DNA of 49,394 bases from an uncultured beta proteobacterium (GCA_903864505.1 CAIPGC010000006.1:1-49394); one strand, 5' to 3'; positions 3,632 through 33,300 are shown, counted from the first letter of the stretch. The notes: generated by a model not told the origin, from the letters alone. Translations and numbers: made by a program.

Positions 3632-3686
3632 CGCTATCAATTTGGAAGCGCTCTACGCTGACTGTACGGGGGCTACAAGCCAAAAT
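3632..3686 (+). repeat. Copy A of the 55-bp dispersed repeat, intergenic
   Basis: cgctatcaatttggaagcgctctacgctgactgtacgggggctacaagccaaaat; 39/55 hand-counted identity with copy E, 35/55 with copy C. Confidence 0.7.
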
Positions 3687-3706
3687 CATATCAAATGGAA
3701 TACCTC

Positions 3707-4519
3707 ATGCATTTTGAAACCCTGAACGTGGCGCTGGAAGACCACATTGCCACCATATGTCTGAACCGGCCCGAGAAGGCAAATGCCATGAACGCCACCA
3801 TGTGGCAGGAAATTCGCAAGGCGTTCTCCTGGGTGGATGAAACCCCCGAAGCCCGTGTCGCAGTGTTGCAGGGAGAGGGCAAGTTGTTTACCGCTGGCAT
3901 TGACTTGCAACTGATGATGGGTCTGGGCTCACAAATCCAGAACGAGTGCGATGCGCGTACCCGCGAGGCGCTGCGCCGTGTCATCCTGGACCTGCAGGAC
4001 ACCCTCACCAGTCTTGAGCGCTGCCGCAAACCGGTGCTGGCGGCCATCCACGGTGCCTGCGTGGGCGGTGGCATGGACCTCATCACCTGCGCTGACATGC
4101 GCTACTGTTCGCCGGATGCCTACTTCACCATCAAGGAAATTGACATCGGCATGACCGCCGACGTGGGCACATTGCAGCGCCTGCCCAAGCTGGTGGGCGA
4201 GGGCATCGCGCGCGAGTTGGCCTATACCGGACGCAAGTGCGAAGCGGACGAGGCGCAGCGAATCGGGTTGGTGAACCGTGTGTTCGATTCCCGCGAGGCG
4301 CTGTACGCCGGGGTGCGGACGATTGCGGCCACCATTGCCGCCAAGTCACCGCTGTCGATCCGTGGCACCAAGGAAATGATCACCTATGCACGCGACCACT
4401 CGGTGGCCGACAGCCTGAACTACATCGCCACCTGGAATGCGGCGATGCTGATGAGCAAGGATTTGACCGAGGCCATGACCGCCAATCTGACGAAAAGGGC
4501 ACCCGCGTTCAAGGACTGA
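3707..4519 (+). CDS. Crotonase family, ECH1-like delta(3,5)-delta(2,4)-dienoyl-CoA isomerase
   Basis: HGACVGGGMDLITCADMRYCSPDAYFTIKEIDIGMTADVGTLQRLPK matches the ECH1 D-E-D active-site arrangement. The upstream ATG at 3695 is an alternative start. Confidence 0.75.
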   Translation: MHFETLNVALEDHIATICLNRPEKANAMNATMWQEIRKAFSWVDETPEARVAVLQGEGKLFTAGIDLQLMMGLGSQIQNECDARTREALRRVILDLQDTLTSLERCRKPVLAAIHGACVGGGMDLITCADMRYCSPDAYFTIKEIDIGMTADVGTLQRLPKLVGEGIARELAYTGRKCEADEAQRIGLVNRVFDSREALYAGVRTIAATIAAKSPLSIRGTKEMITYARDHSVADSLNYIATWNAAMLMSKDLTEAMTANLTKRAPAFKD

Positions 4520-4544
4520 TGGCGCAGTCGGTCGGGGACTAAAA

Positions 4545-5018
4545 CTAACGCGATTTTTTCTTGCCCTGGACCGACTCGGTTGCCGAAGCACCAGTTTTGA
4601 TTGCTGAGAGTACCGCGCTTTCGACAGCGGAGGCGGCAACTTTCATGCCTTTGGCGATAGGTGCAAAGGCATCCGGTGCAGGGTGACGTTCCTGCAGCAG
4701 GTCAACACCGGCGTTGAATTGCTCCACGCTCAACTCCGTGACTTCCTGCAGGTGTTTGGTCGATAGGGCCATCACCCGTTGTGCACTGGACTTGAATGTT
4801 TCAAAGGCGGCTTGCGGCTCCCGGACGGCCTTGATGTCCTCGACAGTCTCCATGGCCGAAGTCTGTAAGGCCTGGGCCTGTGCTTGTGCCAGATCACCCC
4901 ACATGCGCAGATTGTCCATCATCAGTTTGGCCGCATCTTGCGCTGCATCCGGCGTCAATTTGCTGGTGCCAGACATGAGTGTTTTGGTGATGGATTCAAA
5001 CGGATTGTTGGTAAACAT
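4545..5018 (-). CDS. Phasin family protein
   Basis: MFTNNPFESITKTLMSGTSKLTPDAAQDAAKLMMDNLRMWGDLAQAQAQALQ; phasin-type helical protein; GGAG ribosome-binding site just upstream of 5018. Confidence 0.75.
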   Translation of the reverse strand: MFTNNPFESITKTLMSGTSKLTPDAAQDAAKLMMDNLRMWGDLAQAQAQALQTSAMETVEDIKAVREPQAAFETFKSSAQRVMALSTKHLQEVTELSVEQFNAGVDLLQERHPAPDAFAPIAKGMKVAASAVESAVLSAIKTGASATESVQGKKKSR

Positions 5019-5102
5019 GGCATCTCCTCGTGTGTGTTGGAATGCCTGATTATGGTACCAACGACGCACCAACTACCGCACGGCCCCAAGGCCGCAAGGG
5101 CA

Positions 5103-5840
5103 TCAGGTGCTCCGGTAGGCGGACAAACCCAAGGCAAAGAGTGAACTGCTTGAGTTGCTGACGGCTGCTGCATTCTGTTGCAATGAGGACAGCGTGGCCT
5201 GCTGTGACTTCAGCATTGAGGAGCGCTGGTTCAGTGTGGTCATTGACACGCCAACGTTGCCATCTGCCGCCAACTCTTTAGCAGCAACCTGGCCCACTTG
5301 CTGGCCCAGCCGATTCAGCGCGTCTTTCACTGCGCCTGGATTGGCTTTTTGTGCAGTGTCGAACTTGTTACTGTCAACTACCACCTTACCGCTGGTGTTC
5401 AGGCTGATGCCTACTTGCTTCAGCGCTTGCGCCGTGGCGGTGTCTGCGGCCACCGTGCGCTGCAAATCGTTGCTTACTCTGCTGGCGCTCTGGTTGGCGG
5501 CGGTGTCGCCAGCAACACCGGACGTTGTTCTGGCTGCGGCTACTGCGCCATTGAAGGCATTGACAAAGTTGGTGGCGGCAGTCTTGACATCGGTGTTGCT
5601 GGTCGCGCTTGCCAAATGGGTCAGGGCTTTGGCGCCAATCTGCGCGTCCGACACCGCTGACTTCAGTTTGCCAAACGAAGACAATTGGGCCGACGTGGTG
5701 TCGACTTGCGACTGAATGCGTTGATCGGCCTTTTGAAGACCTTGAGCAACTCCGCTGGTGCCGTAAACGGACTGCGTTGCGCTACTTGTTCTGAGGTAGT
5801 TGCTTGCTGCATTCGCTTTTACCAGATCGGTGATGTTCAT
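5103..5840 (-). CDS. Short FliD/flagellar hook-associated-like protein
   Basis: LSSFGKLKSAVSDAQ near the N-terminus, VSNDLQRTV, GISLNTSGKVVVDSNKFDTA and a coiled-coil C-terminus, FliD-like. Confidence 0.6.
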   Translation of the reverse strand: MNITDLVKANAASNYLRTSSATQSVYGTSGVAQGLQKADQRIQSQVDTTSAQLSSFGKLKSAVSDAQIGAKALTHLASATSNTDVKTAATNFVNAFNGAVAAARTTSGVAGDTAANQSASRVSNDLQRTVAADTATAQALKQVGISLNTSGKVVVDSNKFDTAQKANPGAVKDALNRLGQQVGQVAAKELAADGNVGVSMTTLNQRSSMLKSQQATLSSLQQNAAAVSNSSSSLFALGLSAYRST

Positions 5841-5857
5841 GGCGTGGCAACCGTTGC

Positions 5858-5885
5858 TTATCGGAATTCCATCATCTTCCCGTTA
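5858..5885 (-). promoter_or_regulatory. Candidate sigma-28 (FliA)-type promoter upstream of the FliD-like gene
   Basis: Minus strand TAAC-N16-TCCGATAA (-10 is 7/8 to GCCGATAA; -35 weak, spacer one base long), just upstream of ATG 5840. Confidence 0.35.
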
Positions 5886-5953
5886 TACGCAAGAGTCAAG
5901 CGTGGTAGCGAAACTTCGGATGTGTAAAAAAGTACTACTAAAAATATAGCATC

Positions 5954-7204
5954 TTGGCTAAACTATTGTTCAGTCTGAGTTTGGCTACAAGGTTGATGCG
6001 TCCGTCCATGGAGTCCAAACAGGGGGGATTTGTGAAACTGCTAAGACTTCCGGCTTCTAAGGTCCGCCTGGGCATGTCCTTGCCATGGAATGTTCGTGAC
6101 GAGCACTGTGAATTGTTGCTGTCAAAGGGACATTTGGTAATAGATCAGCACATGCTCGATGCTTTACTGTTGCGCGGGGCATTCGTCGATGAAGAGGAAG
6201 TCAGGGCAACAGTGGCCGAAGCGGCGGCGCAGAAATTATTGATATCCGGTGGCGATCCCGTCAAATCGATGGGGACGGTAACCAGCGTGTTCGAACTGTG
6301 GGATCAGACCACCGATGCGTTGAAAGTATTGCTGCATGACACAGCAAATCAAGCGGATTTTCCCGATCGCATGCAGGCTTTTGCATTGCATTTGGTGAAA
6401 ATATTTGATCTTGATCCTGACATCGCGATTTACCGCTCGGTGCGTCAGGACAATGCACAGCACTTTTACTATGGCTATACCCACGCGGTGCTCACAGCCA
6501 TGTTGTGCATCCTGATCTCTCGCCACTTGAATTGGCCAACGGATTCAATCATGAGCCTGGTTAAAGCGGCACTGACCATGAACATGACGATCTTTGAACT
6601 GCAGGGTCAGATGGCCAGCCAGGACTTTCCGATGCGTGACAAGCAACGCGCCGCATTGCAGATTCATCCAGCCCAAGCGGTGGAAGTTCTGGAAAAAAGT
6701 GGAGTTGTGGATGTCGATTGGCTTACTGCCGTGGCACAGCATCATGAGCGTTCAGATGGAACAGGTTACCCGACTGGTTGCAAAGACATCTCCGAGTTCG
6801 CTAAAGCGCTACGAATTGCCGATGTCTTTATGGCAAAAGTCACACCACGCACGCTGCATATTGCCGTTGCACCCAAAGAAGCGATAACCCAACTGTATCG
6901 TGACGACAAGGGAGGGCCACTGTCGACTGCCATGATCAAGGAGTTTGGAATATATCCCCCTGGAGATTTTGTGAAACTCGCTTCGGGAGAATTGGGAATT
7001 GTGGTCAAGCGAACCGAGAACGCTCGCGCACCAATAGTGGCCTCGATTACCGACACCGCAGGTCATCCCGTTGCCAAGACGGTGCGACACGATACTGGGC
7101 AGACGCAGTACGCGATTGTGGGTGAGGCCATGGACAAGATATTGCTCAAGCGCCTTGCGCCCGAGCGTCTGTACGGATTTGCTTCGGCGCCGAAGCAGGT
7201 TTAG
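5954..7204 (+). CDS. HD-GYP-related protein with degenerate HD motif
   Basis: HHERSDGTGYPTG and IRIADVFMAK are HD-GYP-like; N-terminal DUF3391-like region (LPASKVRLGMSLPWN). Start may be 5996 or 6008. Confidence 0.75.
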   Translation: MAKLLFSLSLATRLMRPSMESKQGGFVKLLRLPASKVRLGMSLPWNVRDEHCELLLSKGHLVIDQHMLDALLLRGAFVDEEEVRATVAEAAAQKLLISGGDPVKSMGTVTSVFELWDQTTDALKVLLHDTANQADFPDRMQAFALHLVKIFDLDPDIAIYRSVRQDNAQHFYYGYTHAVLTAMLCILISRHLNWPTDSIMSLVKAALTMNMTIFELQGQMASQDFPMRDKQRAALQIHPAQAVEVLEKSGVVDVDWLTAVAQHHERSDGTGYPTGCKDISEFAKALRIADVFMAKVTPRTLHIAVAPKEAITQLYRDDKGGPLSTAMIKEFGIYPPGDFVKLASGELGIVVKRTENARAPIVASITDTAGHPVAKTVRHDTGQTQYAIVGEAMDKILLKRLAPERLYGFASAPKQV

Positions 7205-7225
7205 TCGGGCACTTACAATGGATTT

Positions 7226-7489
7226 TTGAGACACGACTTGCAGCAAAACTCATCGCTCTCCAGTAAGCACATCCGCATTGGGTCGGGCTTGCTGGTAGGC
7301 GCCCTTGCGTCCATTGGCCTGACGCTTTGGGTCACCTGGCAACTCGAGGGCGGTGCGGCGGCGGTCATTGAAGCCGGGCGCATGCGCATGCAGACTTGGC
7401 GGCTGGCCAGCGCAGTGCAGGCTGAACGCCCCGGACTGGAAGTGCTGGGGCCCTTTGTGCCAGCAACGGTTTCAGGATCTGGTAACTGA
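7226..7489 (+). pseudogene. Truncated N-terminal remnant of a NarX-type nitrate/nitrite sensor kinase
   Basis: TTG start; ALASIGLTLWVTWQLEGGAAAVIEAGRMRMQTWRLASAVQAER resembles the NarX TM1/P-box region; stop after about 87 aa and no kinase domain follows. Confidence 0.55.
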
Positions 7490-7521
7490 AGGCCATCGTC
7501 CAAAAACACCGGGAGGACTCC

Positions 7522-9480: not shown

Positions 9481-9809
9481 GTCTGCTGCTGACATATCTT
9501 TGGCTAAGGGTTAACCCTTGGCGTGAGCTGAACGTAAAAACATATTTTTTTGGCACAAAGTTTGCTGAGACCTTGCCATTTTCCGGAGATTCTCAGACTA
9601 CCAGGACCGTGAGCCATGTTTCATGCGCAGAGCAAGCTATAAATTGCATAGCGGCTGTGGACGGAATTGAAAGACACGACTGCTGTTTTGATAGCGCCTT
9701 TTTGGAAAATGTGTCGCAGCATTCGATACGATTCCAATCTGGCTTGCGCCACCCAAATTCCCAGCACCAGATGCCCTGCCCTGGTCGGTTCAACCCAAGA
9801 AACGATGCC

Positions 9810-12281: not shown

Positions 12282-12299
12282 TCGGGTAAAGTCGGGAGC

Positions 12300-16772: not shown

Positions 16773-16921
16773 GCCACTGCGCTGTTGCCTGTACCCGCTC
16801 GGTCAGGGGCACAGGGGCCTTGGATAGGGATCACAGTACTGCGAGCATTCGACACTTTCGAGTTGATTTTGCAAATAAAAATATAAATTAACTCAAATTA
16901 GTACCATTAAAATGCAAAAAG

Positions 16922-16936
16922 TGATAATATTTATCA
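16922..16936. promoter_or_regulatory. Candidate Fur box (7-1-7) TGATAATATTTATCA
   Basis: Centre of the perfect 7-3-7 palindrome GTGATAA-TAT-TTATCAC (16921-16937); one mismatch to TGATAATNATTATCA; 40 nt upstream of ATG 16976. Confidence 0.45.
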
Positions 16937-16975
16937 CAGAAGAGCATTTCACTACTCTTCGGTATTTGAGACGCC

Positions 16976-19594: not shown

Positions 19595-19654
19595 TCAGCA
19601 ATCCGGAAATTCACTCCCGATTCGGGGAAGCTGTTTTTCGGAATTGGCGCTAAC

Positions 19655-19674
19655 ATATGGGTATTCATACAGTA
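19655..19674. promoter_or_regulatory. Weak candidate LexA/SOS box ATATGGGTATTCATACAGTA upstream of imuA
   Basis: Matches the CAGTA half of TACTG-N10-CAGTA; lies just before the preferred imuA start (19686). Confidence 0.35.
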
Positions 19675-19685
19675 ATTCCGCATGT

Positions 19686-20459
19686 ATGGAGCCTGTTGAA
19701 TATTTCCCGATTGTTCAATTACTCGTTACGCCCATTGTTGTGCCCCACTCTAAGCGATCTTCCCTGTTACCCGGTTTGCCGGCAGCGGTCTGGCGTGCCA
19801 ACAACCTGGCAACTTCAGTGGGCGCCAGGGTTCCCACTGGCGACGCCGCGCTCGATGCGCAATTGCCCGGCGGCGGCTGGCCGCTGGGCGCCTTGACTGA
19901 AATTCTGCAATCGCCAGGCGTGCACGGCGAGTGGAATCTGCTGCTGTCGGCGCTGGTGCGCTGTGGCTCGGCTGACGTGGTGCTGGTGGAACCGCCCCAG
20001 ATACCGTTTAGCCCGGCGCTGGCGGCTCGGGGACTCGATGCCAGGCGTTTGCTGTGGGTGCGGGCTTCAAGTGCGTCCCAGCGTCTGTGGGCGGCCGAGC
20101 AGGCGCTGCGCTGCGCCGGGGTCGATGCCGTGCTGGCCTGGTTTCCGCAGGTGGGTTCAAGCCAACTGCGTCGTCTTCATATGGCGGCCGCAGAGTTCAA
20201 CAAGCTGCTGTTTGTCATGCGCACAGCCTCTGCCGGCAACGAGTCATCCCCTGCCATCCTGCGTTTGCTGCTGGAGCCGGGGCTGACCCTCGGGGCCGCG
20301 ACCCTGCAGGTGCACATACTTAAACGCCGAGGCCCACCTTTGTCCCAGCCCATTGTCTTGCAGGCGTGCGCGCCTGTGTTGGCGCGATTGCTGGCAGCGG
20401 CGCAGCCGGTCGTTCGGGAAGGTCCGTATGTACTGGATCGCGCTGCAGCCCTCGTCTGA
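19686..20459 (+). CDS. imuA: ImuA, translesion synthesis-associated RecA/SulA-like protein
   Basis: VPTGDAALDAQLPGGGWPLGALTEIL; overlaps an imuB-like gene; start moved from the track ORF (19644) because of the candidate operator. Confidence 0.85.
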   Translation: MEPVEYFPIVQLLVTPIVVPHSKRSSLLPGLPAAVWRANNLATSVGARVPTGDAALDAQLPGGGWPLGALTEILQSPGVHGEWNLLLSALVRCGSADVVLVEPPQIPFSPALAARGLDARRLLWVRASSASQRLWAAEQALRCAGVDAVLAWFPQVGSSQLRRLHMAAAEFNKLLFVMRTASAGNESSPAILRLLLEPGLTLGAATLQVHILKRRGPPLSQPIVLQACAPVLARLLAAAQPVVREGPYVLDRAAALV

Positions 20460-21786
20460 CGCAACCTGTTCGGGCGATGTGCTGGTTGATGCCCACACGG
20501 CACTGGCCTGGTGGGCGCTGCAGTTCACCCCGCTGGTGGCACGGGTCCAGGACGCGCTGCTGCTGGAGGTGTCAGGCAGCGAGCGGCTGTTTGGCGGAAG
20601 GGCTGCCCTGGTCGATCATATTTACATGAAAAAAAAGCCGGTAGCCCCCGTGGAGTGTGCGCATGGAGCTACATCTTTGATAGCGCTTGGACGCTTGTGG
20701 AGCGACTCCAAAAACTTGTTTCCTGATGCTTTGCCGGTGCACAACCTGCTTGCGGCACGTCCCTGGTTGCCTACGCTGACGCGGCTGGGATGCACCACCT
20801 GGGGCCAACTGCGTGCCTTGCCCCGTTCCGGGCTGGTGCGGCGTTTTGGCGCGGAACTGGTTGACGCACTGGACCGCGCCTATGGAATGCAGCCCGAGCT
20901 CTATCCCTGGCTGAAAATGCCGGAAAGCTTTGACGCTTCTCTGGAGTTGTCTGCCAGCGTGGAGTTGGCACCAGCGCTGTTGTTTGCTGCACGCCGATTG
21001 CTGGCCCAGTTGCAGGTGTGGCTGCGGGCACGCCAGCACGGGGTACTTGCCCTCGAGTTGTTGTGGGAGCTTGACGCCAGGCGCTCCAACGCATTGCAGG
21101 TCGATGCCCACCACCGTGGCGGCTCTTTTGGGCAACTGCTGTTGTGTACGGCACAGCCTACGCAGGACATGCAGCATTTGCAGCGCTTGCTGGCCGAGCA
21201 ACTGGCGCGCGTGACGCTGCCTGCGCCCGTGTTGCAGCTGCGCCTGCGCAGCGTGCAGACGCAGCCGATGCCCGGAGAAAGCCGCAGCCTCCTGCCCCAG
21301 GACCTCCGCGCCGGTGACGAGCTGCACCAGTTGCTGGAGCGCCTGAGCGCACGTCTGGGGCCGCAACAGGTGCAGCGTGCCACCCTGGCAGCAGACCACC
21401 GGCCCGAGCGCATGCAGCGCTGGCACGCAGCCACTGAAAACGCTACCAAATCAGGAGCTGCTTACGCAATACTGTCGGGCGCCGCAGCCCGAAACGGCTT
21501 TCAACTGGCAAGCCCCTGCGGGCTCTACCCGACCTGGTTGCTGGCAGAGCCCCGGCGTCTGCTGGTGCAGCATGACATGGTGCAGTACCAGGGTAGTCTG
21601 GATCTGCTGGCCGGCCCGCAGCGACTGGAGTCGGGCTGGCTTGAAGGCCATGCCGATTGCGCGCTGCGGGACTACTTTGTGGCGCGCAGTCCCGGGGCGG
21701 GTTTGGTGTGGGTATTTCGCGAGCGCTTGAAAACCGTGGGGGAAGGTCGCGCGCCGCTCTGGTATCTGCACGGGCTGTTTGCCTGA
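20428..21786 (+). CDS. imuB: ImuB, Y-family DNA polymerase-like protein
   Basis: WWALQFTPLVARVQDALLLEVSGSERLFGG, LLAARPWLPTLTRLGCTTWGQLRALPRSGLVRRFG, CGLYPTWLLAEP, C-terminal WYLHGLFA. Confidence 0.85.
   Translation: MYWIALQPSSDATCSGDVLVDAHTALAWWALQFTPLVARVQDALLLEVSGSERLFGGRAALVDHIYMKKKPVAPVECAHGATSLIALGRLWSDSKNLFPDALPVHNLLAARPWLPTLTRLGCTTWGQLRALPRSGLVRRFGAELVDALDRAYGMQPELYPWLKMPESFDASLELSASVELAPALLFAARRLLAQLQVWLRARQHGVLALELLWELDARRSNALQVDAHHRGGSFGQLLLCTAQPTQDMQHLQRLLAEQLARVTLPAPVLQLRLRSVQTQPMPGESRSLLPQDLRAGDELHQLLERLSARLGPQQVQRATLAADHRPERMQRWHAATENATKSGAAYAILSGAAARNGFQLASPCGLYPTWLLAEPRRLLVQHDMVQYQGSLDLLAGPQRLESGWLEGHADCALRDYFVARSPGAGLVWVFRERLKTVGEGRAPLWYLHGLFA
20631..20685 (-). repeat. Copy C of a 55-bp dispersed repeat, inside imuB
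   Basis: Reverse complement cgctatcaaagatgtagctccatgcgcacactccacgggggctaccggctttttt aligns without gaps to copy A. Confidence 0.7.
21441..21495 (+). repeat. Copy D of the 55-bp dispersed repeat, inside imuB
   Basis: cgctaccaaatcaggagctgcttacgcaatactgtcgggcgccgcagcccgaaac aligns without gaps, more diverged in its 3' half. Confidence 0.5.
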
Positions 21787-21808
21787 ACCCGCAACTCCAG
21801 CAAGGGGT

Positions 21809-22777
21809 TCAGGACGGGCTGGGGTAGCGGTGGATCTCGATGGTGGAGTGCACGATCTCTTCGTGTTGCGCCAGTTGTGTGCGTACCTGCTGCGCTGTCA
21901 GTTGCGGGTCCTGGGTCACCAGCGTGAGTGCACAGGAGTAGGTTTGCTGGCCCACGCGCCAGACGTGCAGGTCGGTGATGCGGGTCTCCCGGCCCTGCAC
22001 AGTGCAAGCCACCACCTCCCGGATCTCATCAACCACCGGGTGGTCCATCTCGCGGTCGAGCAGCACCTTGCTGGTCTCCTGAATCAGGTTTTTGGACCAC
22101 ACCGCCACCAGCACTGCGCCCACCACCCCCATCACCGGGTCCAGCCACGACCAGCCATAGATCCAGCCCCCCACCAGGGCCACGATTGCCAGCACCGACG
22201 TGGCGGCATCCGCAATCACATGCACGTAGGCTGACTTCAGGTTCAGGTCGTGGCGGTGATCGTGATGACCATGGTCGTGTTCGCCATGCGCGTGGCCGTG
22301 TCCATGGCCATGACCGTGGTCATGCGCGTTGCCCAGAATCAGCGCACAGACCAGGTTCACCGCCAGGCCCAGCACGGCGATGACAATGGCTTCCTGGTAA
22401 TGGATGGCCTGAGGCGAGAACAGCCGTTCCACCGAGCCCACCACCATCAGCGTGGCTACCCCCAGCAAAAAAATGGCACTGGCAAAGCCGGCCAGGATCT
22501 CAATCTTCCAGGTGCCAAAGGCAAAGCGCGGGTCGTGCGCGTAGCGCCGCGCGGCGGCGTAAGCAAAGGCGCTCAGGCCAATGGCTACGGCGTGCGAGCT
22601 CATGTGCCAGCCATCGGCGAGCAGGGCCATGGAGTTGAACCACCAGCCCGCCACGATTTCCACCACCATGGTCAGCGCCGTGATCCACATCACCAACCGC
22701 GTGCCGCGCTCGGCCGAGCGGCTGCCTTCGTCAAACACATGGTTGTGAATCCAGTGGGTGAGTGGGTCATTGCGCAT
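21809..22777 (-). CDS. Cation diffusion facilitator, DmeF-like Co/Ni efflux transporter
   Basis: CDF fold, SMALLADGWHMSSHAVAIGLSAFAY; His-rich loop HDHGHGHGHGHAHGEHDHGHHDHRHD. Confidence 0.85.
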   Translation of the reverse strand: MRNDPLTHWIHNHVFDEGSRSAERGTRLVMWITALTMVVEIVAGWWFNSMALLADGWHMSSHAVAIGLSAFAYAAARRYAHDPRFAFGTWKIEILAGFASAIFLLGVATLMVVGSVERLFSPQAIHYQEAIVIAVLGLAVNLVCALILGNAHDHGHGHGHGHAHGEHDHGHHDHRHDLNLKSAYVHVIADAATSVLAIVALVGGWIYGWSWLDPVMGVVGAVLVAVWSKNLIQETSKVLLDREMDHPVVDEIREVVACTVQGRETRITDLHVWRVGQQTYSCALTLVTQDPQLTAQQVRTQLAQHEEIVHSTIEIHRYPSPS

Positions 22778-23356
22778 TCAGAACCCCAGACTCTTTCCGG
22801 CTCCGGCCAGTGTGGCCAGGCCCAGCAGCGCGAAAATGCCTGCGGCAATGCTGTGCACCAGTTTCATTGGAATTCTGGAAGCAAACCGGTCGCCCACAAA
22901 GACCGCCGGCACATCGGCAATCAGCATCCCCAGTGTGGTGCCAGCCACCACCACCCAGGGGTTGGGGAATTGGGCCGCCATGGCCACCGTGGCAATCTGG
23001 GTCTTGTCGCCCATCTCGGCCAGAAAGAAGGTAATGAGCGTTGCGCCAAACACGCCGAACTGTTGTGCCACCTGGGTTTCCTCCTCTTCGATCTTGTCCG
23101 GGATCAGCGTCCAGACGGCCATGGCAATGAAAGACAGGCCCAGCACCCAGCGCAGCACTTCGGGCGTGATGGCCGACGTAATCCAGGCCCCCAGCGCTCC
23201 GGCCAGTCCATGGTTGAAGACGGTGGCCAGAAAGATGCCCGCAATGATGGGCAGCGGCTTCTTGAACCGGGCCGCCAGAATAAAGGCGAGCAACTGGGTC
23301 TTGTCGCCGATTTCGGCCAGGGCCACCACTCCGGTGGAAATGAGAAACGCTTCCAT
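22778..23356 (-). CDS. TMEM165/GDT1 (UPF0016) family cation exporter
   Basis: Duplicated E-x-GD-(K/R)-T(S) motifs: ALAEIGDKTQLLAF and FLAEMGDKTQIATV; stop abuts the dmeF-like start (TGAATG). Confidence 0.9.
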   Translation of the reverse strand: MEAFLISTGVVALAEIGDKTQLLAFILAARFKKPLPIIAGIFLATVFNHGLAGALGAWITSAITPEVLRWVLGLSFIAMAVWTLIPDKIEEEETQVAQQFGVFGATLITFFLAEMGDKTQIATVAMAAQFPNPWVVVAGTTLGMLIADVPAVFVGDRFASRIPMKLVHSIAAGIFALLGLATLAGAGKSLGF

Positions 23357-23413
23357 GAAAGGGATTGGATCCTGTGCGAAAGAAAGGCTTGAGCTTACCC
23401 TAGCATTGCCCTC

Positions 23414-23503
23414 GGAGCCCGGGCGGCAGAGCGCTCTGCTTCGTGTCCCCCGGCCTACGGCCTCCTCCTTTACCTTCGCAGCGCGCTCTGCCGCCCAGGC
23501 TCC
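23414..23503. repeat. Long imperfect inverted repeat (26-bp arms, 38-nt loop with inner GGCC-TAC-GGCC hairpin)
   Basis: GGAGCCCGGGCGGCAGAGCGCTCTGC (23414-23439) pairs with GCAGCGCGCTCTGCCGCCCAGGCTCC (23478-23503), 2 mismatches. Confidence 0.8.
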
Positions 23504-26077
23504 TCAGGTGATGCGCCATCCCTGGGGCAGCAGCGTGGAGTAGCCCAGGCGCTTGAGCGTCTCCAGCAACAGTGTGCTGCACAGTCCCACGGCGAGCGCC
23601 ATGCCCAGCAACGCCAGCGACAAAGCTTCAAAGTGAAACAGCGCGCGCAGCACCGGAATACACAGTGCAGCCGCCAGCAAAGCGATAGTGGCTAGCAAGA
23701 CGCGCACCAGTGCCGGGTTGGGCCGCAGCAGGGTACGCAGCGAAGAGGCGCCGAAGGACCGGTTCACCGCAATCAGCCCGAAGTTGGCCAGCACCAGCGC
23801 AGCAAAGGTGGTGGCACGGGCCTGAGACTCGGGAATAGACTGACCCAGTAATGTGACAAACAGCAGCCCGGTGCAAACCAGGATGGCCCCGCCCTGTGCC
23901 AGACTCCAGCCCATCAGGCTGTTGCTAAACAAGGGGGCCTGTGGGTCGCGCGGCGGGCGCTCCATGATGTCGCGCTCCTCTTTCTCCGCCTCAAATACAA
24001 ACGATCCGACCGGGTCGATGACCAGTTCCAAAAACGCAATGTGTACCGGCATGAATATCACGGGCAACCCGAACAACAGCGGCAACAGCGACAAACCGGC
24101 AATCGGCACATGCACAGCAAGCACAAACGCCATGGCCTTGCGCAGGTTGTCGTATATGCGCCGCCCCAACCGGATGGCACGTACGATGGAACTGAAGTCA
24201 TCATCGAGCAGCACCAGCGCCGAAGCTTCGCGTGCCACATGCGTGCCGCGCAGTCCCATCGCAATGCCAATATGTGCGGCTTTCAGTGAGGGTGCGTCGT
24301 TGACCCCATCGCCCGTCATTGCCACCACTTCACCACGGCCTTTGAGCGCGTTGACGATTCGTAGTTTTTGCTCCGGTAACACGCGGGCAAAGACGGTGGT
24401 CTGTTGCACGCGTTCCTGCAGCGCTGCATCACTCAGCGTGGCAATTTCGGCCCCGGTCAGAACGCCACCGCTGGGGTCCAGCCCCGCCTGTGCCGCCACG
24501 GCCTGTGCCGTGGTTGCGAAATCCCCAGTCACCATGGCCACTGCAATCCCCGCTGTGCGGCACTCGCCAATGGCCTGTGTGACCCCCGGACGCAGCGGGT
24601 CGGTCAGTGCAATCAAGCCCAGGAAAGCGAAGTCAAAATCATGCTGTTGCTGCGGCCAGGCGTGGGTCTCAAACCTTGCGCGGGCCACACCCAGCACCCG
24701 CAGTCCCCGCTGCGCCATATCCTGTGCGGTGTCGAGCAACCTGCTGCGCTGCGCTGCGTCGAGGTGGCACAAATCCGCTATTGCTTCGGGCGCACCCTTG
24801 ACCGCCACCACATGGGTTTCCTGCTCGGCAGGAACTTCCCATACATGCGACATGGCCAGCATCTGGTTGCTCAGGCTGTACTCGCGAATCAGTTCCCATT
24901 GCGGGTGCCGCCCCTGCGAGGGAAGATGCGAGTACCCCAGGGCATGGATGGCTTTTTCCATCGGATCGATGGCATCGATCTCGCTCGCCAGAATGCCCGT
25001 ATCGAGCACTTCAAAAAAGTCGTCAGGCAACGCTCCGGCCTCAACTTTCCAGCACAGCATGCCGTCCGGTGTTGCAAGTCCAAGCTCGACCACCGTCATG
25101 TGGTTCTGTGTCAGCGTCCCGGTCTTGTCGGTGCACAGCACGGTGGCAGAACCCAGGGTTTCGATGGTGGCAGAGCGCCTCGCCAGCAGGTGCTGATGCG
25201 CCATGCGCCAGGCCCCCATGGTCATGAACACGGTCAGAATCAGCAGAAACTCCTGCGGCAGCATCGACATGGCCAGTGTGATTCCGGCCAGCACACCGCC
25301 CAGCCAGTCGTGGCGCAGCGCTCCATAGAGCGCGATGACCGATATGCTGAGCAGCAGGCCCACGATGGAAAACACGCGCACCAGACGTCGGGTTTCGAGG
25401 TGCAGCGGGGTTGGCGGAGTCTGCACTGCATTGAGGGTGGTGCCAATGCGACCAATCTCGCTGCGCGGGCCCGTGGCCATGACCCGTGCCAAACCCTGTC
25501 CACCCACCACCACGGTGGCAGCAAACACAAACGGCAGACCGTCGCCGCCCGGGCGTACGATGGGTACCTCGCCTGTATCAGCCACCTTGCGCACCGGGAT
25601 GGCTTCACCCGTGAGCAGCGACTCGTCGGTGAGCAGGTCATGCGCCTGCAGCACTTGGGCATCTGCGGCGACGCGCTCACCTTCACTCAGCACCAACAGG
25701 TCGCCGCAGACCACGTCGCTGCCAAGAATCGTGACCGTCTGGCCACCACGAACGACGGTTGCACGGGGACTGGTCATTTCGCGCAGTGCTTCAAGCACAC
25801 GCTCGGTACGCTGCTCCTGCACCAGCGTAATGGACATGATCACCAGCACAAAGCCAAGCAGCATCAATGCCTCGCCCCGGTCGCCCAGCAACAGGTACAC
25901 CGCGGCGGCGGCTACCAGCAACTCGAACATCGGCTCACGCACGATCTCCAGCGCGATGTGGCGCCAGGTGCGACTTTGGGTTTGCGGCAACGCGTTTGGT
26001 CCATCTTCACGAAGACGCTGCGCCGCTTGCGTCTGGGTCAGCCCAGAAAAGCCGGAAGTGTTGCCAGGGTCGCTCAT
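23504..26077 (-). CDS. Cation-translocating P-type ATPase
   Basis: LCTDKTGTLTQNHM, VKGAPEAI, VAMTGDGVNDAPSLKAAHIGIAMG; M4 region MSMLPQEFLLILTVF. Track ORF extends to 26176; MSDPGNTSG at 26077 preferred. Confidence 0.92.
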   Translation of the reverse strand: MSDPGNTSGFSGLTQTQAAQRLREDGPNALPQTQSRTWRHIALEIVREPMFELLVAAAAVYLLLGDRGEALMLLGFVLVIMSITLVQEQRTERVLEALREMTSPRATVVRGGQTVTILGSDVVCGDLLVLSEGERVAADAQVLQAHDLLTDESLLTGEAIPVRKVADTGEVPIVRPGGDGLPFVFAATVVVGGQGLARVMATGPRSEIGRIGTTLNAVQTPPTPLHLETRRLVRVFSIVGLLLSISVIALYGALRHDWLGGVLAGITLAMSMLPQEFLLILTVFMTMGAWRMAHQHLLARRSATIETLGSATVLCTDKTGTLTQNHMTVVELGLATPDGMLCWKVEAGALPDDFFEVLDTGILASEIDAIDPMEKAIHALGYSHLPSQGRHPQWELIREYSLSNQMLAMSHVWEVPAEQETHVVAVKGAPEAIADLCHLDAAQRSRLLDTAQDMAQRGLRVLGVARARFETHAWPQQQHDFDFAFLGLIALTDPLRPGVTQAIGECRTAGIAVAMVTGDFATTAQAVAAQAGLDPSGGVLTGAEIATLSDAALQERVQQTTVFARVLPEQKLRIVNALKGRGEVVAMTGDGVNDAPSLKAAHIGIAMGLRGTHVAREASALVLLDDDFSSIVRAIRLGRRIYDNLRKAMAFVLAVHVPIAGLSLLPLLFGLPVIFMPVHIAFLELVIDPVGSFVFEAEKEERDIMERPPRDPQAPLFSNSLMGWSLAQGGAILVCTGLLFVTLLGQSIPESQARATTFAALVLANFGLIAVNRSFGASSLRTLLRPNPALVRVLLATIALLAAALCIPVLRALFHFEALSLALLGMALAVGLCSTLLLETLKRLGYSTLLPQGWRIT

Positions 26078-26139
26078 GGGACCCATATTACGCGCCGTTG
26101 TGGCACCTGAACAGCACGTTTCAGTGACAGAATGATGCC

Positions 26140-26394
26140 GTGTCCGGCACCATGCAACCACCCCCAGCGCAAGCACGCAACCCGCTGCACGGCATCACGC
26201 TGGAGCGCATGGTGACGGAATTGGCGCAGCACTACGGCTGGGAAGACCTGGGCCAGCGCATTGCGGTACGTTGTTTTACCCATGACCCCAGCGTGGCCTC
26301 GAGCCTGAAGTTTCTGCGCCGGACACCCTGGGCGCGCGAGAAGGTGGAAGGTCTGTACCTGTTTATGTTGCGTGAAATTCGGCGTCGACAGTGA
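26140..26394 (+). CDS. VF530 family small DNA-binding protein
   Basis: NPLHGITLERMVTELAQHYGWEDLGQRIAVRCFTHDPSVASSLKFLRRTPWAREKVEGLY; GTG start (or ATG at 26152). Confidence 0.85.
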   Translation: MSGTMQPPPAQARNPLHGITLERMVTELAQHYGWEDLGQRIAVRCFTHDPSVASSLKFLRRTPWAREKVEGLYLFMLREIRRRQ

Positions 26395-26400
26395 GCAAAA

Positions 26401-26455
26401 TGCTATTTTATTGGTAGCTGCCTGCGCATATTCCGCGAGCGTTACAGGCATTTTC
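26401..26455 (+). repeat. Copy B of the 55-bp dispersed repeat, intergenic between convergent genes
   Basis: tgctattttattggtagctgcctgcgcatattccgcgagcgttacaggcattttc aligns without gaps with copies A, C and E. Confidence 0.65.
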
Positions 26456-26465
26456 CACCCAAAGC

Positions 26466-27611
26466 CTAGTCTTTAAAGTACCAGTAACCGGCATTCACCC
26501 ACTGCGTCAGGGCGCGGACAAAGTCGGGTTGTTTGATCGCGCTGCGCAGCAGCGTGGTGGTGAGCACGTCGTGGTCGCACAGGGCCTTGATGCCTGCCTT
26601 GGCATTGGCCCCGAAGGCGTGGCGTTCGCCGTCGACGTAGCACACGCCTTGCTTTAGTGTGGTGTCCAGATAAAAGCAGCGCAGACCGCCGGTGCGCACC
26701 AGGGGCTGCGTCTTGAGGTTGACCAGCAGATCGGCAGCGTCCATCGGTTCGTCGAGTTCCTGCAGGTCAAGCTGGCATTTGGTTCGGGACAGAAAACTGC
26801 CGGCAAAGTCGGCCACCAGGGCATCGTCGTCCAGCAGCGACTGCAGTTGCGCCCTGATGCGCGCGAAGTCGCTGGCGTTGATGTGGCCCTGGTGCTGGGC
26901 GATGGGTCGCTTGGGGTCGCTGAAAAGGGTGCTGCCACGCTCCTTGTCGATCACGTAGTCGGCAAAGCCGCTGAGCATGTCGCATGCGGACTTGCCCCGA
27001 AAGCCCACCGAATAGCTCAGCGAGGTTTCCAGCGACACACCGTCGTGTGGAAAGCCCGGCGGGATATAGAGGATGTCGCCCGGAAGCAGTTCCACGTCGA
27101 TGATGGCCTCGAAGGGGTCCACGTGCAGCAGCGCGGCGTGCGCAGCAAACTGGCGGTGTTCACCTCGGTCGCCCACGCGCCACTGGCGTCGCCCCGAGCC
27201 CTGGCAGATGAACACGTCGTACAGGTCAATGTGCGGACCGACACCGCCGCCCGGGCGGGAGTAGCTGATCATCACATCGTCGAGCCGCCACTTCGGGATG
27301 AACGCAAAGGGCGGCACCAGTTGCGCCACCCCGGGCGACCAGTGGTTGACGGCCTGCACGATCAGCGACCAGCCATTTTTGCCCAGATGGTCGTAGGACT
27401 CAAACGGACCATTCTCGGCCTGCCATTTGCCGCGCTTTTTGTAGACCAGGCGCGAGTCGATGTCTTCCTCGCAGGCCAGGCCGGCCAGTTCTTCGGGGCT
27501 GATCAGGTCTTTGAAATCTTTAAAGCCCTGGCGCAGAACCACCGGCTTTTGCTGCCAGTAGTGCTGCATGAAGTGTTCAATGGAGAAATCGGAAAGCGTG
27601 AGCTCGAGCAT
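26466..27611 (-). CDS. Cupin/JmjC ribosomal oxygenase, YcfD/RoxA-like
   Basis: KPVVLRQGF, VMISYSRPGGGVGPHIDLYDVFICQGSGRRQWRVG, LLPGDILYIPPGFPHDGVS; start at ATG 27611, not the 28370 ORF start. Confidence 0.85.
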   Translation of the reverse strand: MLELTLSDFSIEHFMQHYWQQKPVVLRQGFKDFKDLISPEELAGLACEEDIDSRLVYKKRGKWQAENGPFESYDHLGKNGWSLIVQAVNHWSPGVAQLVPPFAFIPKWRLDDVMISYSRPGGGVGPHIDLYDVFICQGSGRRQWRVGDRGEHRQFAAHAALLHVDPFEAIIDVELLPGDILYIPPGFPHDGVSLETSLSYSVGFRGKSACDMLSGFADYVIDKERGSTLFSDPKRPIAQHQGHINASDFARIRAQLQSLLDDDALVADFAGSFLSRTKCQLDLQELDEPMDAADLLVNLKTQPLVRTGGLRCFYLDTTLKQGVCYVDGERHAFGANAKAGIKALCDHDVLTTTLLRSAIKQPDFVRALTQWVNAGYWYFKD

Positions 27612-27719
27612 AGGTGACCCTTGGCGCTGCTTGGGCGCAACGCATGCGGCAATGGTAATCCACGCCGGTTGCGGACCGCCCCTGACCCTGACTACACTTG
27701 CATGCAAAGGAGCGCCGAC

Positions 27720-28424
27720 ATGATTACCCTGTATCAGTTTGAACCCGCCCTGGGCCTGCCCAACGCCAGCCCGTTTTGCATGAAGGTGGAAAACTACCTG
27801 CGCATGGCGAAGTTGCCCTACCAGGCACCGCTGGTGTCTCTGTTTGACTTTGGCAAGGCCCCCAAGGGCAAGATGCCCTATATCGACGACGACGGCAAAG
27901 TGGTGGCCGATTCGAGTTTCATCATCGAGTACCTCAAGCAGACCCATGGCGACCCGCTCGATGGCTGGCTCAGCCCTGTGCAACGTGCGCAGGCGCTGGC
28001 GTTGCAGCGTCTTATGGAAGAAGACCTGTACTGGGCGGTGGTGCACACCCGCTGGATCGACCCGGTGGGCTGGGAACTCACACGCGAGGCGTTTTTCGGC
28101 AAGCTGCCGGTGCCACTGAAATGGGTGGTCGCGCCGCTGGCGCGCCGGGGCATGGGCAAGCAGTTGCATGGCCACGGCATGGGCCGCCACAGCGCACAGG
28201 AGATTGCCGCCATTGGCGCGCGCGACATCACGGCGCTGGCCGACTTTCTGGACGACAAGCCCTATTTCATGGGCGACGCGCCCTGTTCGCTGGACGCCAT
28301 TGCCTACGCGTTTCTGGCCAATCTGGTCTGGGTCCCGCTGGAGTCGGCGCTGAAGCGCCATGCCCTGCAATACCCGCAGTTGCTGGCCTATTGCGAGCGC
28401 ATGCGGGAGCGCTATTACGGCTAG
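27720..28424 (+). CDS. Glutathione S-transferase family protein
   Basis: MITLYQFEPALGLPNASPFCMKVENYLRMAKLPYQ and KGKMPYIDDDGKVVADSSFIIEYL. Confidence 0.88.
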   Translation: MITLYQFEPALGLPNASPFCMKVENYLRMAKLPYQAPLVSLFDFGKAPKGKMPYIDDDGKVVADSSFIIEYLKQTHGDPLDGWLSPVQRAQALALQRLMEEDLYWAVVHTRWIDPVGWELTREAFFGKLPVPLKWVVAPLARRGMGKQLHGHGMGRHSAQEIAAIGARDITALADFLDDKPYFMGDAPCSLDAIAYAFLANLVWVPLESALKRHALQYPQLLAYCERMRERYYG

Positions 28425-28461
28425 CGCAAGCGCAGGGCCACCTGGATCGTCGGGAGCTGTT

Positions 28462-28626
28462 TCAGGTCATGTGCCGACCGATGATTTCCGTTCTTGAACT
28501 GGCATCACCGGGGTGCCACCCGAACGTATACGGAATCCAGATGAATGTCGTGACCACCAGAGGCAGCAATGCAATGGCCACGACGCGAAGGTATATTCCG
28601 ATGAAGGTCTTGAGAGAATGATCCAT
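28462..28626 (-). CDS. Small membrane protein candidate, 54 aa (below track length cut-off)
   Basis: MDHSLKTFIGIYLRVVAIALLPLVVTTFIWIPYTFGWHPGDASSRTEIIGRHMT*; GGAG located 7 nt upstream of ATG; one hydrophobic segment. Confidence 0.45.
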   Translation of the reverse strand: MDHSLKTFIGIYLRVVAIALLPLVVTTFIWIPYTFGWHPGDASSRTEIIGRHMT

Positions 28627-28756
28627 TGCCTACTCCAACTGGTTGCTGTCACGGGGTCATGATAGGAATGCATTCTTAAAATTTTCTGATCTCACTACCA
28701 GACCCTTAGGTAGCGCCTGTTCCCCGGACCCTTTAGCGGACCGAATGTGCGTCAAC

Positions 28757-28795
28757 ACACGGTGTCGTGATTGGGCTATGGTTGGCGCACCGTGT
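28757..28795. repeat. Inverted repeat ACACGGTG-N23-CACCGTGT
   Basis: Perfect 8-bp arms at 28757-28764 and 28788-28795. Confidence 0.55.
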
Positions 28796-28818
28796 TCAGC
28801 GCCTCTGTGAACTCATCG

Positions 28819-30126
28819 TCAGCGCAACCAGACAGCATCCAGGGAGATGCCACCCCATGGATCGGGTTCGGTGGAAAACTTTCCACGCGAGAGCAGGGTC
28901 TGGTCGCGCGCTTTGGCGTACGGATGCACTGCCGTACCACCCTCCTTCAGTTGCTCGGCATCGAGGGCATCATCGTGCAGCGTCAGGAAAATTCGGTGTG
29001 GATCACTGCGCAAACTCAGCCCGACCCGGCCCACCGCTTCGCATTCTGCAAGTACGCCGAATGCACTCTCTACCACCCGAAAAATAATGACCCGCAGTGA
29101 GTCGGGAATGTCCGTCTCGATCAGGTCGAACGAGGTTTCGAGCCCAATGTGTTGATACTTTTCTCCAAATTCGCGACACATTGCACGCAAAGCCGAAATC
29201 AATCCCAGGTCGTTGAGGATCGGGGGGTGCAGGCCCACAGCGACCGAGCGCACTTCGCGGGTTGCCGCCTGCAGTGGACGAATGATCCCTTCCAGCATGG
29301 GCAATACCTTTCCGTTATCTGCGTTGCACGCGTGGGATGCGTTTTCGATGGCAAAGGTAACTGCCGCCAGCGTCTGCGCGACACGTTCGTGCAGTTCAAA
29401 AGCGATGTGCTGCTTCTCGTTTTCCTGGGTGTTGAGCATGCGTGCGGAAAGGGCGCCAATCAGCTCGGAGTGCTCGCGCAAATCCGCTTCAGCGCGCTTG
29501 CGTTCGGTAATGTCGCGCAGGAAGACAAAGCACTGGCCCTCGCCATTATCGCGATAGCTTGCACTGGCTTCCACATGCCATAGCGATCCATCCTTGCGCC
29601 GATGCATTGATTCAAACTGACCGCTGCCTGTAGAGATGATTTGCTGCATGGACGCCTCGGTCGCCGCTGCGGTTTCTGGTGCCTCCAGATCGGTAAGCCG
29701 CATACCGAGCAGTTCCCCACGCGTGTAACCGGACTGACGCATATACCTGGTGTTCACCTCGCGCAGTCTGCCATTCACATCAACAATGCAGAATCCATCG
29801 AGTGTGGTTGCCAGGATGTGGCGATGCGCTTCGTCGCTTTCTCGGAGTGCCTGCTCGGCCAATTCGCGCTCGGAAATGTGCCTGGTCAAGGGGCGAAAGA
29901 CGAAATAGAACAGGACGGGGGCAACCATGAGGGAGAGCAGGGTCGAATCGAGCAGTGCGTCTCTCCACCCGGTAACACGCGGAAACATATCGAGAAACAA
30001 CATGACCATCGTCTCGCCGACGAAAATGGAGCACGCCAGAATGACAAAAAGGCGCCCGGGCGATTGCGCTACGGTTGGTCTGACAGTCATTGATGAGTGG
30101 CCTTCGAAGCGCGAAGAGTTGTCCAT
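28819..30126 (-). CDS. PAS domain protein with HisKA_3-type phosphoacceptor region and degenerate ATPase domain
   Basis: Two TM segments, PAS (ATTLDGFCIVDVNGRL..), HIAFELHERVAQTLAAVTFAIE H-box; C-terminal region lacks recognisable N and G boxes. Start may be 30090. Confidence 0.75.
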   Translation of the reverse strand: MDNSSRFEGHSSMTVRPTVAQSPGRLFVILACSIFVGETMVMLFLDMFPRVTGWRDALLDSTLLSLMVAPVLFYFVFRPLTRHISERELAEQALRESDEAHRHILATTLDGFCIVDVNGRLREVNTRYMRQSGYTRGELLGMRLTDLEAPETAAATEASMQQIISTGSGQFESMHRRKDGSLWHVEASASYRDNGEGQCFVFLRDITERKRAEADLREHSELIGALSARMLNTQENEKQHIAFELHERVAQTLAAVTFAIENASHACNADNGKVLPMLEGIIRPLQAATREVRSVAVGLHPPILNDLGLISALRAMCREFGEKYQHIGLETSFDLIETDIPDSLRVIIFRVVESAFGVLAECEAVGRVGLSLRSDPHRIFLTLHDDALDAEQLKEGGTAVHPYAKARDQTLLSRGKFSTEPDPWGGISLDAVWLR

Positions 30127-30295
30127 TGACGATGATTCAGTAAGCCCATCGGTACTCGGTAGCCAGCAATTCTGTCACACCAGTCGCCTGGGAAGGCGAG
30201 GCACTCGGGTCCGAGCGTCCGCAACGGGTCCGGTTGGCCGAAAATCTCCGCAGGCGCTGTCACGCAAGCCTTCGTAGGCAGGGGCTGCGGCGCTA

Positions 30296-30315
30296 TACTG
30301 GTGTTTTAACCAGTA
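30296..30315. promoter_or_regulatory. Candidate LexA/SOS box TACTGGTGTTTTAACCAGTA
   Basis: Perfect outer palindrome TACTGG/CCAGTA with E. coli-like TACTG-N10-CAGTA spacing; ends 13 nt before the dnaE2 ATG. Confidence 0.65.
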
Positions 30316-30328
30316 TGACTAGCCACCC

Positions 30329-33300
30329 ATGGCAGAGCCTGTCTACGCCGAACTGCATTGCCTCTCCAGTTTCAGTTTCCAGCGCGGTGCGTCGCAGCCG
30401 GAGGAACTGGTGGCGCGCGCGGTCAAGCTCGGCTACCACGCACTTGCGATCACCGACGAATGTTCGGTCGCCGGCGTGGTGCGTGCGCACCAGGAGGCCA
30501 AGGCTTGCGGCCTGAAACTGCTGCTGGGGGCCGAGTTTTGGGTGGACGAGGGCTTCACGGTGGTAGTGCTGGCCCACCATCTGCAAGGCTGGGGCAACCT
30601 GTGTGAGTTCATTACCGCGGCACGGCGCGCTGCACCCAAGGGCAGCTACCGGCTAGGGTGGACGGGGCCGCAGAACCAGCAACTTTGGGCACGCCTGCTC
30701 GGGTGCGAACTGCTTTTGGTTTTTCCAGTTGCTATCACTATGGAAGCGGCCTGCGCTGTATCTACGAGGGCTAGAGACCTATTTGGCATCCATTTGTGGT
30801 TGGCCGTGGCATTGCAGCTGGGTCTGGACGATGCCTTGAAGAGCTGCCGATTGCAACAAATCTCCCAACTCACCGGCGTGCCGCTGGTAGCGGCAGGGGA
30901 TGTGCGCATGCATGTGCGCTCACGCAAACCCCTGCACGATGTGCTCACCGCGGTGCGCCTGGGCCAACCCGTCTCTGCGTGCGGTTTTGCCTTGCAGCCC
31001 AACGCCGAGTCGCATCTGCGCTCACGCGACCGGCTGGCAGCACTGTATCCACCGGCGTGGCTGGCGAACACGCTGGTGGTGGCCGACCGATGCACCTTTG
31101 TGCTCGATGAACTGCGCTACCACTATCCGCTGGAGTCGGTCCTGCCCGGCATGACACCGGCACAGACCCTGCGCCACTACTGCCAGGCGGGCGGCTCGGA
31201 GCGCTATCCGCAAGGGATTCCCTCAGCGGTGTGCAAGACGTTGGGCAAAGAGCTCGATCTGATTGCCGAACTGGCCTATGAGATGTATTTCCTCACGGTG
31301 CACGACATCGTGCGTTTTGCGCGCAGTCAGGGCATTCTGTGCCAGGGCAGGGGATCGGCCGCCAATTCGGTGGTGTGCTACTGCCTGCACATCACCGAGG
31401 TCAACCCGGTAGGGGGGCACCTGATGTTTGAGCGCTTCATCAGCCGCGAGCGCAACGAGCCTCCCGATATTGATGTCGACTTCGAGCACCAGCGCCGCGA
31501 GGAAGTGATTCAGTACATCTACCAGAAATATGGCCGTGAACGTGCCGCCATAGCAGCCACTGTCATCAGCTACCGCCCGCGCAGCGCCTTGCGCGATGTG
31601 GGGCGGGCGCTGGAAATACCAGAGCGGCTGATCACGGCGATGGCCAGGGAACACCCGGGCATGTACAGCCGCGAGATCCTGGGCCAGCGCCTGGCCTGTG
31701 CGCTGGAGCGACTGGGGCCCGACTTTCATGCGCCAGCGCCGCTACGCCTGCAGCAGTGGCTGGGTTTGAGCACGGAGTTGCAGCGTTTTCCGCGCCACCT
31801 GAGCCAGCATGTGGGCGGCTTTGTTCTCACGCAGGGGTTCTTGACCCGGCTGGTTCCTGTCGAAAACGCCGCCATGCCCGAGCGCTCCATCATTCAGTGG
31901 GACAAGGACGACCTGGACGCGGTGGGACTGATGAAGGTCGATGTGCTGGCGCTGGGCATGCTCAGCGCGATTCGCCGTTGCCTGGCGCTGGTGACACAGC
32001 TGCGCGGTCTGGGCGCACCGATGCGCATGCAAGACATTCCCCGCGAAGACCCGGCCACCTACGCCATGATTTGCCAGGCCGATACGGTAGGCGTGTTCCA
32101 GATCGAGAGCCGTGCCCAGATGAGCATGCTGCCCCGGCTCAGGCCCCGTTGCTTCTACGACCTGGTGGTGCAGGTGGCCATTGTGCGTCCGGGGCCGATC
32201 CAAGGCGGCATGGTGCATCCCTACCTGCATGCGCGCAAGGACCGTGCAAACGTGAAGTATCCTGGCCCGGCCCTGGAGCAGGCGCTGGAGCGCACCCTGG
32301 GGGTTCCGATCTTTCAGGAGCAGGTGATGCAGATTGCCGTGCTGGCGGCCGGCTTTACCCCGGGCGAGGCCGATGCCTTGCGCCGCTCCATGGCGGCCTG
32401 GAAGCGCAGTGGCGGGGTTCATAAATTTCGGTCCCGCTTTCTGACTGGCATGGAGAAGAACGGCTATGCGCCGGAGTTTGCCCAGGCCATCTTCAAGCAG
32501 ATGGAGGGCTTTGGCGAGTACGGCTTTCCGGAGAGCCATGCTGCCAGTTTTGCCCTGCTGGTGTACCTGAGCTGCTGGCTCAAATGGCACGAGCCTGCGT
32601 GCTTTCTGGCGGCCATGCTCAACAGCCAGCCGCTGGGGTTTTACGGTCCTGCGCAACTGGTACAGGATGCACGTCGCCACGGTGTGGAGGTGCATCCGAC
32701 CGATGTGTCCCTCAGCGATTGGGATTGCACGTTAGAGCAAAACGGGGCAGTCCGCCTGGGTCTTCGCCTGGTCTCCGGCCTGCGCCAGGAGGTTGCCCAC
32801 CGCATCGCTGCCGAACGCAGCAAAGCGCCATTTCAAAGCACCCAGGACCTTGCCCTGCGCGGCATGCTCAACGCAGCCGACTTGCAAACGCTGGCAAGTG
32901 CCGATGCCCTGCAGTCTTTGAGCGGCCACCGCCGCCAGCAGGTGTGGGATGCCTCGGCGCTCAAGCCCGCACCTGAACTCCTTCAAGGCGTCCCCATCGA
33001 CGAAGCCCCGCTTACGTTCCATCCCGCCAGAGAAGGCGAGGAGGTCACCTTCGACTACTCCGCACTTGGGCTGACTTTGCGCTCGCATCCCTTGCTGCTG
33101 TTGCGTGAGCAGCTATCAAAACAGAAGCTGCTCACGGCCGAGCAGATGCGCCACTACCCCAGCGGCAGACTGGTGCGAGCCTGCGGCATCGTCACCATGC
33201 GACAGCGCCCCCAAACTGCCAAGGGGGTGGTTTTTGTCACACTGGAGGACGAAACTGGCAGCGTGAATGTGATTGTGTGGAAGTCCGTGAAAGAGCATTT

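Follow-up and report, generated by a model that had tools for sequence, protein, structure and literature searches.

The window analysed here, a 49,394-nt stretch taken as a whole, carries several copies of a long Comamonadaceae motif that recurs ~500 times per genome in many relatives of Rhodoferax. The repeat is very probably a dispersed signal kept as DNA, and neither a mobile element nor a protein insert. By analogy with known systems, its function may be that of a recognition signal of the DNA-uptake type, most like the DUS of Neisseriaceae and the USS of Pasteurellaceae, an assignment that we hold with confidence somewhat short of even.

A sequence-only reading of the window had proposed five copies, and all of their coordinates and strands proved correct, as did the hand-counted identities of 39/55 between copies A and E and 35/55 between A and C. 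Copy A (3632–3698, plus strand) consists of a 55-bp core (3632–3686) followed by an AT-rich tail, and sits between the stop of an OYE/FadH-type oxidoreductase gene 7 bp before it and the start of an enoyl-CoA hydratase gene 9 bp after it. The second intergenic copy, B (26401–26467, core 26401–26455, plus strand; 44.1 bits against the profile, E = 8e-12), lies near the 3′ end of a JmjC/ROXA-like gene. Two copies fall within imuB, where C (20619–20685, core 20631–20685, minus strand) is antisense and D (21441–21507, core 21441–21495, plus strand) is sense and occupies a hypervariable linker. Copy E (30730–30796, core 30730–30784, plus strand) lies in the sense orientation within the PHP-domain region of dnaE2. 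Degenerate copies had also been suspected at two places: the one near 42656–42682 is a genuine new copy, F (42606–42672, core 42618–42672, minus strand), in the sense orientation within a PMT/ArnT-like glycosyltransferase gene (42114–43895, minus strand), with 37/55 identity to B and a profile E of 1.5e-7; the one near 9641–9700 gave no profile match. A weak match near the end of dnaE2 (33086–33128, minus strand; E = 0.003) is possibly a decayed copy. Within 19644–33460, imuA-imuB lies ~8.5 kb from dnaE2, genes that are usually adjacent, with a P-type cation ATPase gene, the JmjC/ROXA-like gene and a PAS histidine kinase gene between them.

The chance baseline was set with 60 dinucleotide-shuffled windows, in which the best match to any copy averaged ~29/55. 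Since these windows reached 33/55 at most, copies A, B, C and E are above chance pairwise. Copy D matches the others at only 28–31/55, within the chance range, and joins the family by its profile score (33.1 bits, E = 2e-8). The earlier impression that copies are concentrated in SOS genes did not hold up: the window has average density, and the excess in imuB and dnaE2 is weak and post hoc (P = 0.034 for at least three copies in 5.4 kb).

The dispersed family itself is real. The host genome belongs to Rhodoferax, to judge by the named neighbours of its dnaE2. Iterated nhmmer searches of the window together with 375 kb more of the same genome found 55 copies in 424 kb, versus none in the reversed-sequence control (best score 7.4 bits). 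This density, one copy per 7.7 kb, corresponds to ~520 copies per 4.04-Mb genome; a sequence-only model built from the five copies gave at least 150 matches in the host genome, all with E of 0.0012 or better. Within Comamonadaceae, matches occur in 62 of 141 sampled genera, which bears out the link to this family suggested earlier. Across 399 genomes of the order, only five outside the family match, with one or two weak matches each, and the motif is specific to Comamonadaceae. Rhodoferax genomes tend towards being either motif-rich or nearly empty, with a few intermediates; the empty genome G034 has no copies in 1.17 Mb, where ~150 would be expected. In a complete relative genome, the best 150 copies are spread uniformly with Poisson-like spacing (76 on the plus and 74 on the minus strand) and without strand or regional bias. 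A replication-polar signal was considered and rejected, given that the complete genome has no skew.

Low-GC DNA is poor in the motif. On one 800-kb contig of genome G186, the eight lowest-GC 10-kb segments hold 2 copies versus 9 expected (P = 0.006). The longest stretch free of copies spans 40 kb; an integrase, a D5-like primase and type I restriction genes lie within it. By this measure, taken on the one contig, the motif is under-represented in newly acquired DNA, as uptake sequences are. The low-GC island at L333, 2957–15052 of this genome, with its D5-like primase, integrase and type I restriction-modification genes, is free of the motif.

Literature searches and sequence-string searches across 5.39 million papers found no description of the motif; among the repeats described there, the Beta-proteobacterial repeat element (BRE; Hot et al. 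2011) alone has hosts in common with it. The BRE is reported from Bordetella and several Comamonadaceae, mostly between genes and sometimes within them; it is ~90 bp long with 69% GC in Bordetella, is often tandem, and has 8–22 copies in Bordetella (PMC3110155). Both are small dispersed repeats; going by the published description, the BRE and the motif differ in length and GC content, in whether copies are tandem, and in copy number in Bordetella. Among sampled genomes of the order, in which Bordetella is possibly unrepresented, the motif is multi-copy in none outside Comamonadaceae.

A consensus was built from 115 copies and reads TGCTATnAATTTrGTAGCTGCCTGCGCAnnTTCyACGGGGGCTACAGGCcAATTT, followed by a weaker ggCtcAAAAt; the motif is ~55–67 bp long and holds ~42 bits of information. 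Over positions 1–67, the order of its elements is GCTAY-n-WWWWW-n-RTAGC, TGCYTGCGCA, an AT tract (30–32), YACGGGGGCT-ACAGGC, AATTT and CTCAAAAT. The first element is an inverted repeat (positions 2–6 and 14–18) around an AT spacer, and a third half-site lies at 41–45. AT tracts alternate with GC cores at tract spacings of ~21, 22 and 11 bp. Columns range from invariant (T4, A16, G17 and C27) to near-random (7, 13 and 29). A and T are interchangeable at positions 9–11 (90–97% W) and 52–54, with ~87–98% A/T overall, which suggests recognition of DNA shape. Another genus carries a dialect of the motif, TGCGCTTGATGGACGGGCGCT.

A structured RNA, a terminator or a REP-type hairpin element would be in keeping with the many intergenic copies that lie shortly after stop codons. 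This reading is effectively refuted by the absence of covariation, for which the earlier reading had proposed a test. RNAalifold on the copies gave 2 pairs at −0.2 kcal/mol, with no covariation, hairpin or predicted fold, an Rfam search of the whole window returned no match, and the motif is common to sense and antisense copies.

The constraint acts on DNA. A simple gene finder put 61 copies entirely within genes, 39 of them sense and 22 antisense; 11 span a gene end and 43 are intergenic. One column profile is common to the intergenic, sense and antisense classes (r = 0.90–0.95). In the 30 main-frame sense copies, the bases at third codon positions are fixed contrary to what codon usage predicts: T4 in 30/30 versus 3.1 expected, A16 in 30/30 versus 4.5, A28 in 28/30 versus 5.6 and T43 in 27/30 versus 3.7. 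It is this shared profile, together with the third codon columns, that places the constraint at the DNA level. Coding copies lie in a tolerated frame, as the earlier reading had foreseen. In the frame that would create TAG, T at position 15 is avoided in 8/8 copies, and T is present in 35/43 intergenic copies. Because the copies were collected by motif score, absolute column conservation is inflated; the reversed sequence and G034 serve as controls.

Comparison with G186 gives a view of the same sites over time. At 22 orthologous sites, with flanks mostly 70–87% identical, the motif is clear in 14, weak in 6 and absent in 2. Across 16 verified orthologous pairs, substitutions affect 7% of high-information, 32% of middle and 53% of free columns; the corresponding differences between unrelated copies are 8, 44 and 67%. 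Between orthologous copies, drift is seen at free columns and the constrained ones are kept. Copy C has an orthologous copy in G186, copy D is common to other Rhodoferax and Polaromonas, and copy E is common to Rhodoferax, some Polaromonas and another Burkholderiaceae MAG, with dialect changes. At the copy-E site in dnaE2 of Polaromonas sp. JS666 (L161, 10001–13159), the protein pattern is similar and the DNA motif is gone, with GC-rich codons in its place, as if the motif had decayed.

How copies came to lie in genes was assessed from orthologue lengths. In alignments against G034, the length difference is 0 at many sites, including copies E and F and those in FolP and MurG, and some motif-bearing genes are shorter; insertions of +18 to +22 residues were absent from this comparison, the exception being one N-terminal start-site case of +14. 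The C-to-W span of DnaE2 is 32 residues here and in 28 orthologues, Burkholderiaceae outgroups included, and 28 or 36 residues in most other orthologues. The FolP copy aligns without gaps to solved dihydropteroate synthase (DHPS) structures, and the MurG copy aligns without gaps to 1f0k. ImuB segment C has equal length in motif-less Comamonadaceae relatives, and the motif-less counterparts of the copy-F gene in G034 and G186 are just as long. From these alignments, coding copies appear to have arisen by rewriting of genes already present, which did not become longer. The earlier idea of coding copies as inserted DNA, taken up as a protein linker, was rejected for the copies compared, as motif-less orthologues are no shorter or longer across E or C and the FolP and MurG copies elsewhere are also length-neutral; only D lies in a variable-length linker. 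Same-length residues in motif-less orthologues had been named in advance as grounds for refutation, and they tell against insertion while the repeat itself stands.

These lengths also bear on whether the motif is an old mobile repeat, of MITE or Rickettsia-palindromic-element type, that was fixed long ago and whose coding copies were tolerated in frame. We regard this as improbable, although it has some points in its favour. At intergenic site A, Rhodoferax genomes with and without the motif differ by the presence or absence of ~60 bp, so insertion is a possible route to intergenic copies; a wider test of intergenic lengths against G034 gave a median of +30 bp versus −5.5 in controls, from a sample too small to weigh (n = 8). 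Copy D within its variable-length linker and the patchy, family-restricted distribution point the same way. The lack of +18 to +22 residue insertions, bar the start-site case, and the ancestral length kept in DnaE2, FolP and MurG count against a mobile origin, as do columns that span invariant to random, unlike neutral decay. Neither subfamilies nor recent near-identical copies were found: pairwise identities are nearly matched by a column-shuffled model (SD 3.58 versus 3.26 of 55), and the sole pair at least 80% identical is a local tandem duplication with similar flanks (L023, 645–699 and 1502–1556). The motif also has no hairpin and no terminal inverted repeats. Rickettsia palindromic elements (RPEs) are palindromic insertions that lengthen proteins. 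Like them, the motif is a short repeat that occurs between genes as well as, in a tolerated frame, within protein genes; unlike them, it has no hairpin and no net insertion in its coding copies.

Equal coding length together with a common motif could also be explained by in-place overwriting, through short-tract gene conversion or single-stranded DNA recombination of partly similar stretches with existing copies. Conversion, however, predicts donor states at free columns and pairs of similar copies, and the free columns look independent, making this a quite remote prospect.

The main rival to an uptake signal is a site for a Comamonadaceae-specific chromosome-organising or other DNA-binding protein. 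Its footprint would comprise the GCTAY-N7-RTAGC inverted half-sites, the third half-site and the phased AT tracts, with selection maintaining enough sites across the chromosome. The DNA-level constraint, the long retention at orthologous positions and the scarcity of copies in low-GC DNA are all compatible with such a protein, as are the phased tracts and inverted half-sites themselves. We nevertheless judge it unlikely, if a serious contender: spacing in the complete genome is uniform and Poisson-like with no strand or regional pattern, ~42 bits far exceeds the ~14 bits needed to locate ~500 sites, and the motif is entirely missing from close relatives. KOPS, matS and parS are likewise dispersed DNA sites that tolerate coding context; they are 8–16 bp long and skewed or regional, unlike the motif, which is long, uniform and unskewed.

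A signal of the uptake type remains our preferred reading. Described USS have a core with AT tracts, are attributed to molecular drive, and are under-represented both in new DNA and where coding sequence is constrained (PMC7811141); uptake sequences also show an orientation bias within genes (PMC2346458). The motif shares with DUS and USS its genome-wide over-representation in hundreds of copies, on both strands, in coding and intergenic DNA and without regional clustering. Within genes it has a preferred orientation and preferred reading frames, and it has evolved in place in weakly constrained coding positions. It is family-specific with dialects, scarce in newly acquired DNA, and built, like the USS, of a core and interchangeable AT tracts. 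Copies would arise and persist under a bias in favour of DNA that carries the signal, most likely through biased uptake and homologous recombination (molecular drive), as for DUS and USS. Under a drive of this kind, copies would be scattered over codons with loose constraint and scarce in acquired DNA, and they would decay once the bias had gone.

Some properties of the motif sit less easily with uptake. At 55–67 bp and ~42 bits, it greatly exceeds the known DUS and USS (~10–32 bp) in length, and its density of one per 7.7 kb versus ~1 per kb is ~5–10 times lower. It also belongs to a different bacterial family, and is set apart from the described sequences by length and content (PMC7811141). 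Nor does motif presence appear to follow the known competence genes: among 20 Rhodoferax genomes, ComEC and PilQ occur in 20 and PilW in 19, in motif-rich and motif-empty genomes alike. The competence and pilus machinery alone does not account for the motif pattern, and these genes were rejected as the discriminating factor. For ComEA (TIGR00426), only below-cut-off matches were found, inside open frames of 747–880 aa.

Neisseria uptake-sequence receptors are minor pilins. Genome G186 has a low-GC, motif-free type IV minor pilin operon (L363, 11550–19623; FimT/GspH-like, PilV/W/X and PilY1), which by analogy is a candidate receptor locus. More tentatively still, Comamonadaceae may possess a third, independently evolved self-recognition (uptake) system, with a signal that would be longer than all known ones and would have changed, in place, the coding sequence of hundreds of genes, among them those for conserved enzymes such as FolP, MurG and DnaE2.

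The motif accounts for unusual "linkers" found in proteins of Rhodoferax and Polaromonas, a caution against calling them domains. Even as a protein-binding site, a ~42-bit motif that shapes the coding sequence of conserved genes at ~500 places would be unusual. If it is an uptake signal, the question of why such signals evolve would gain a third independent example, and self-recognising natural DNA exchange would reach a large and ecologically important freshwater and soil family.
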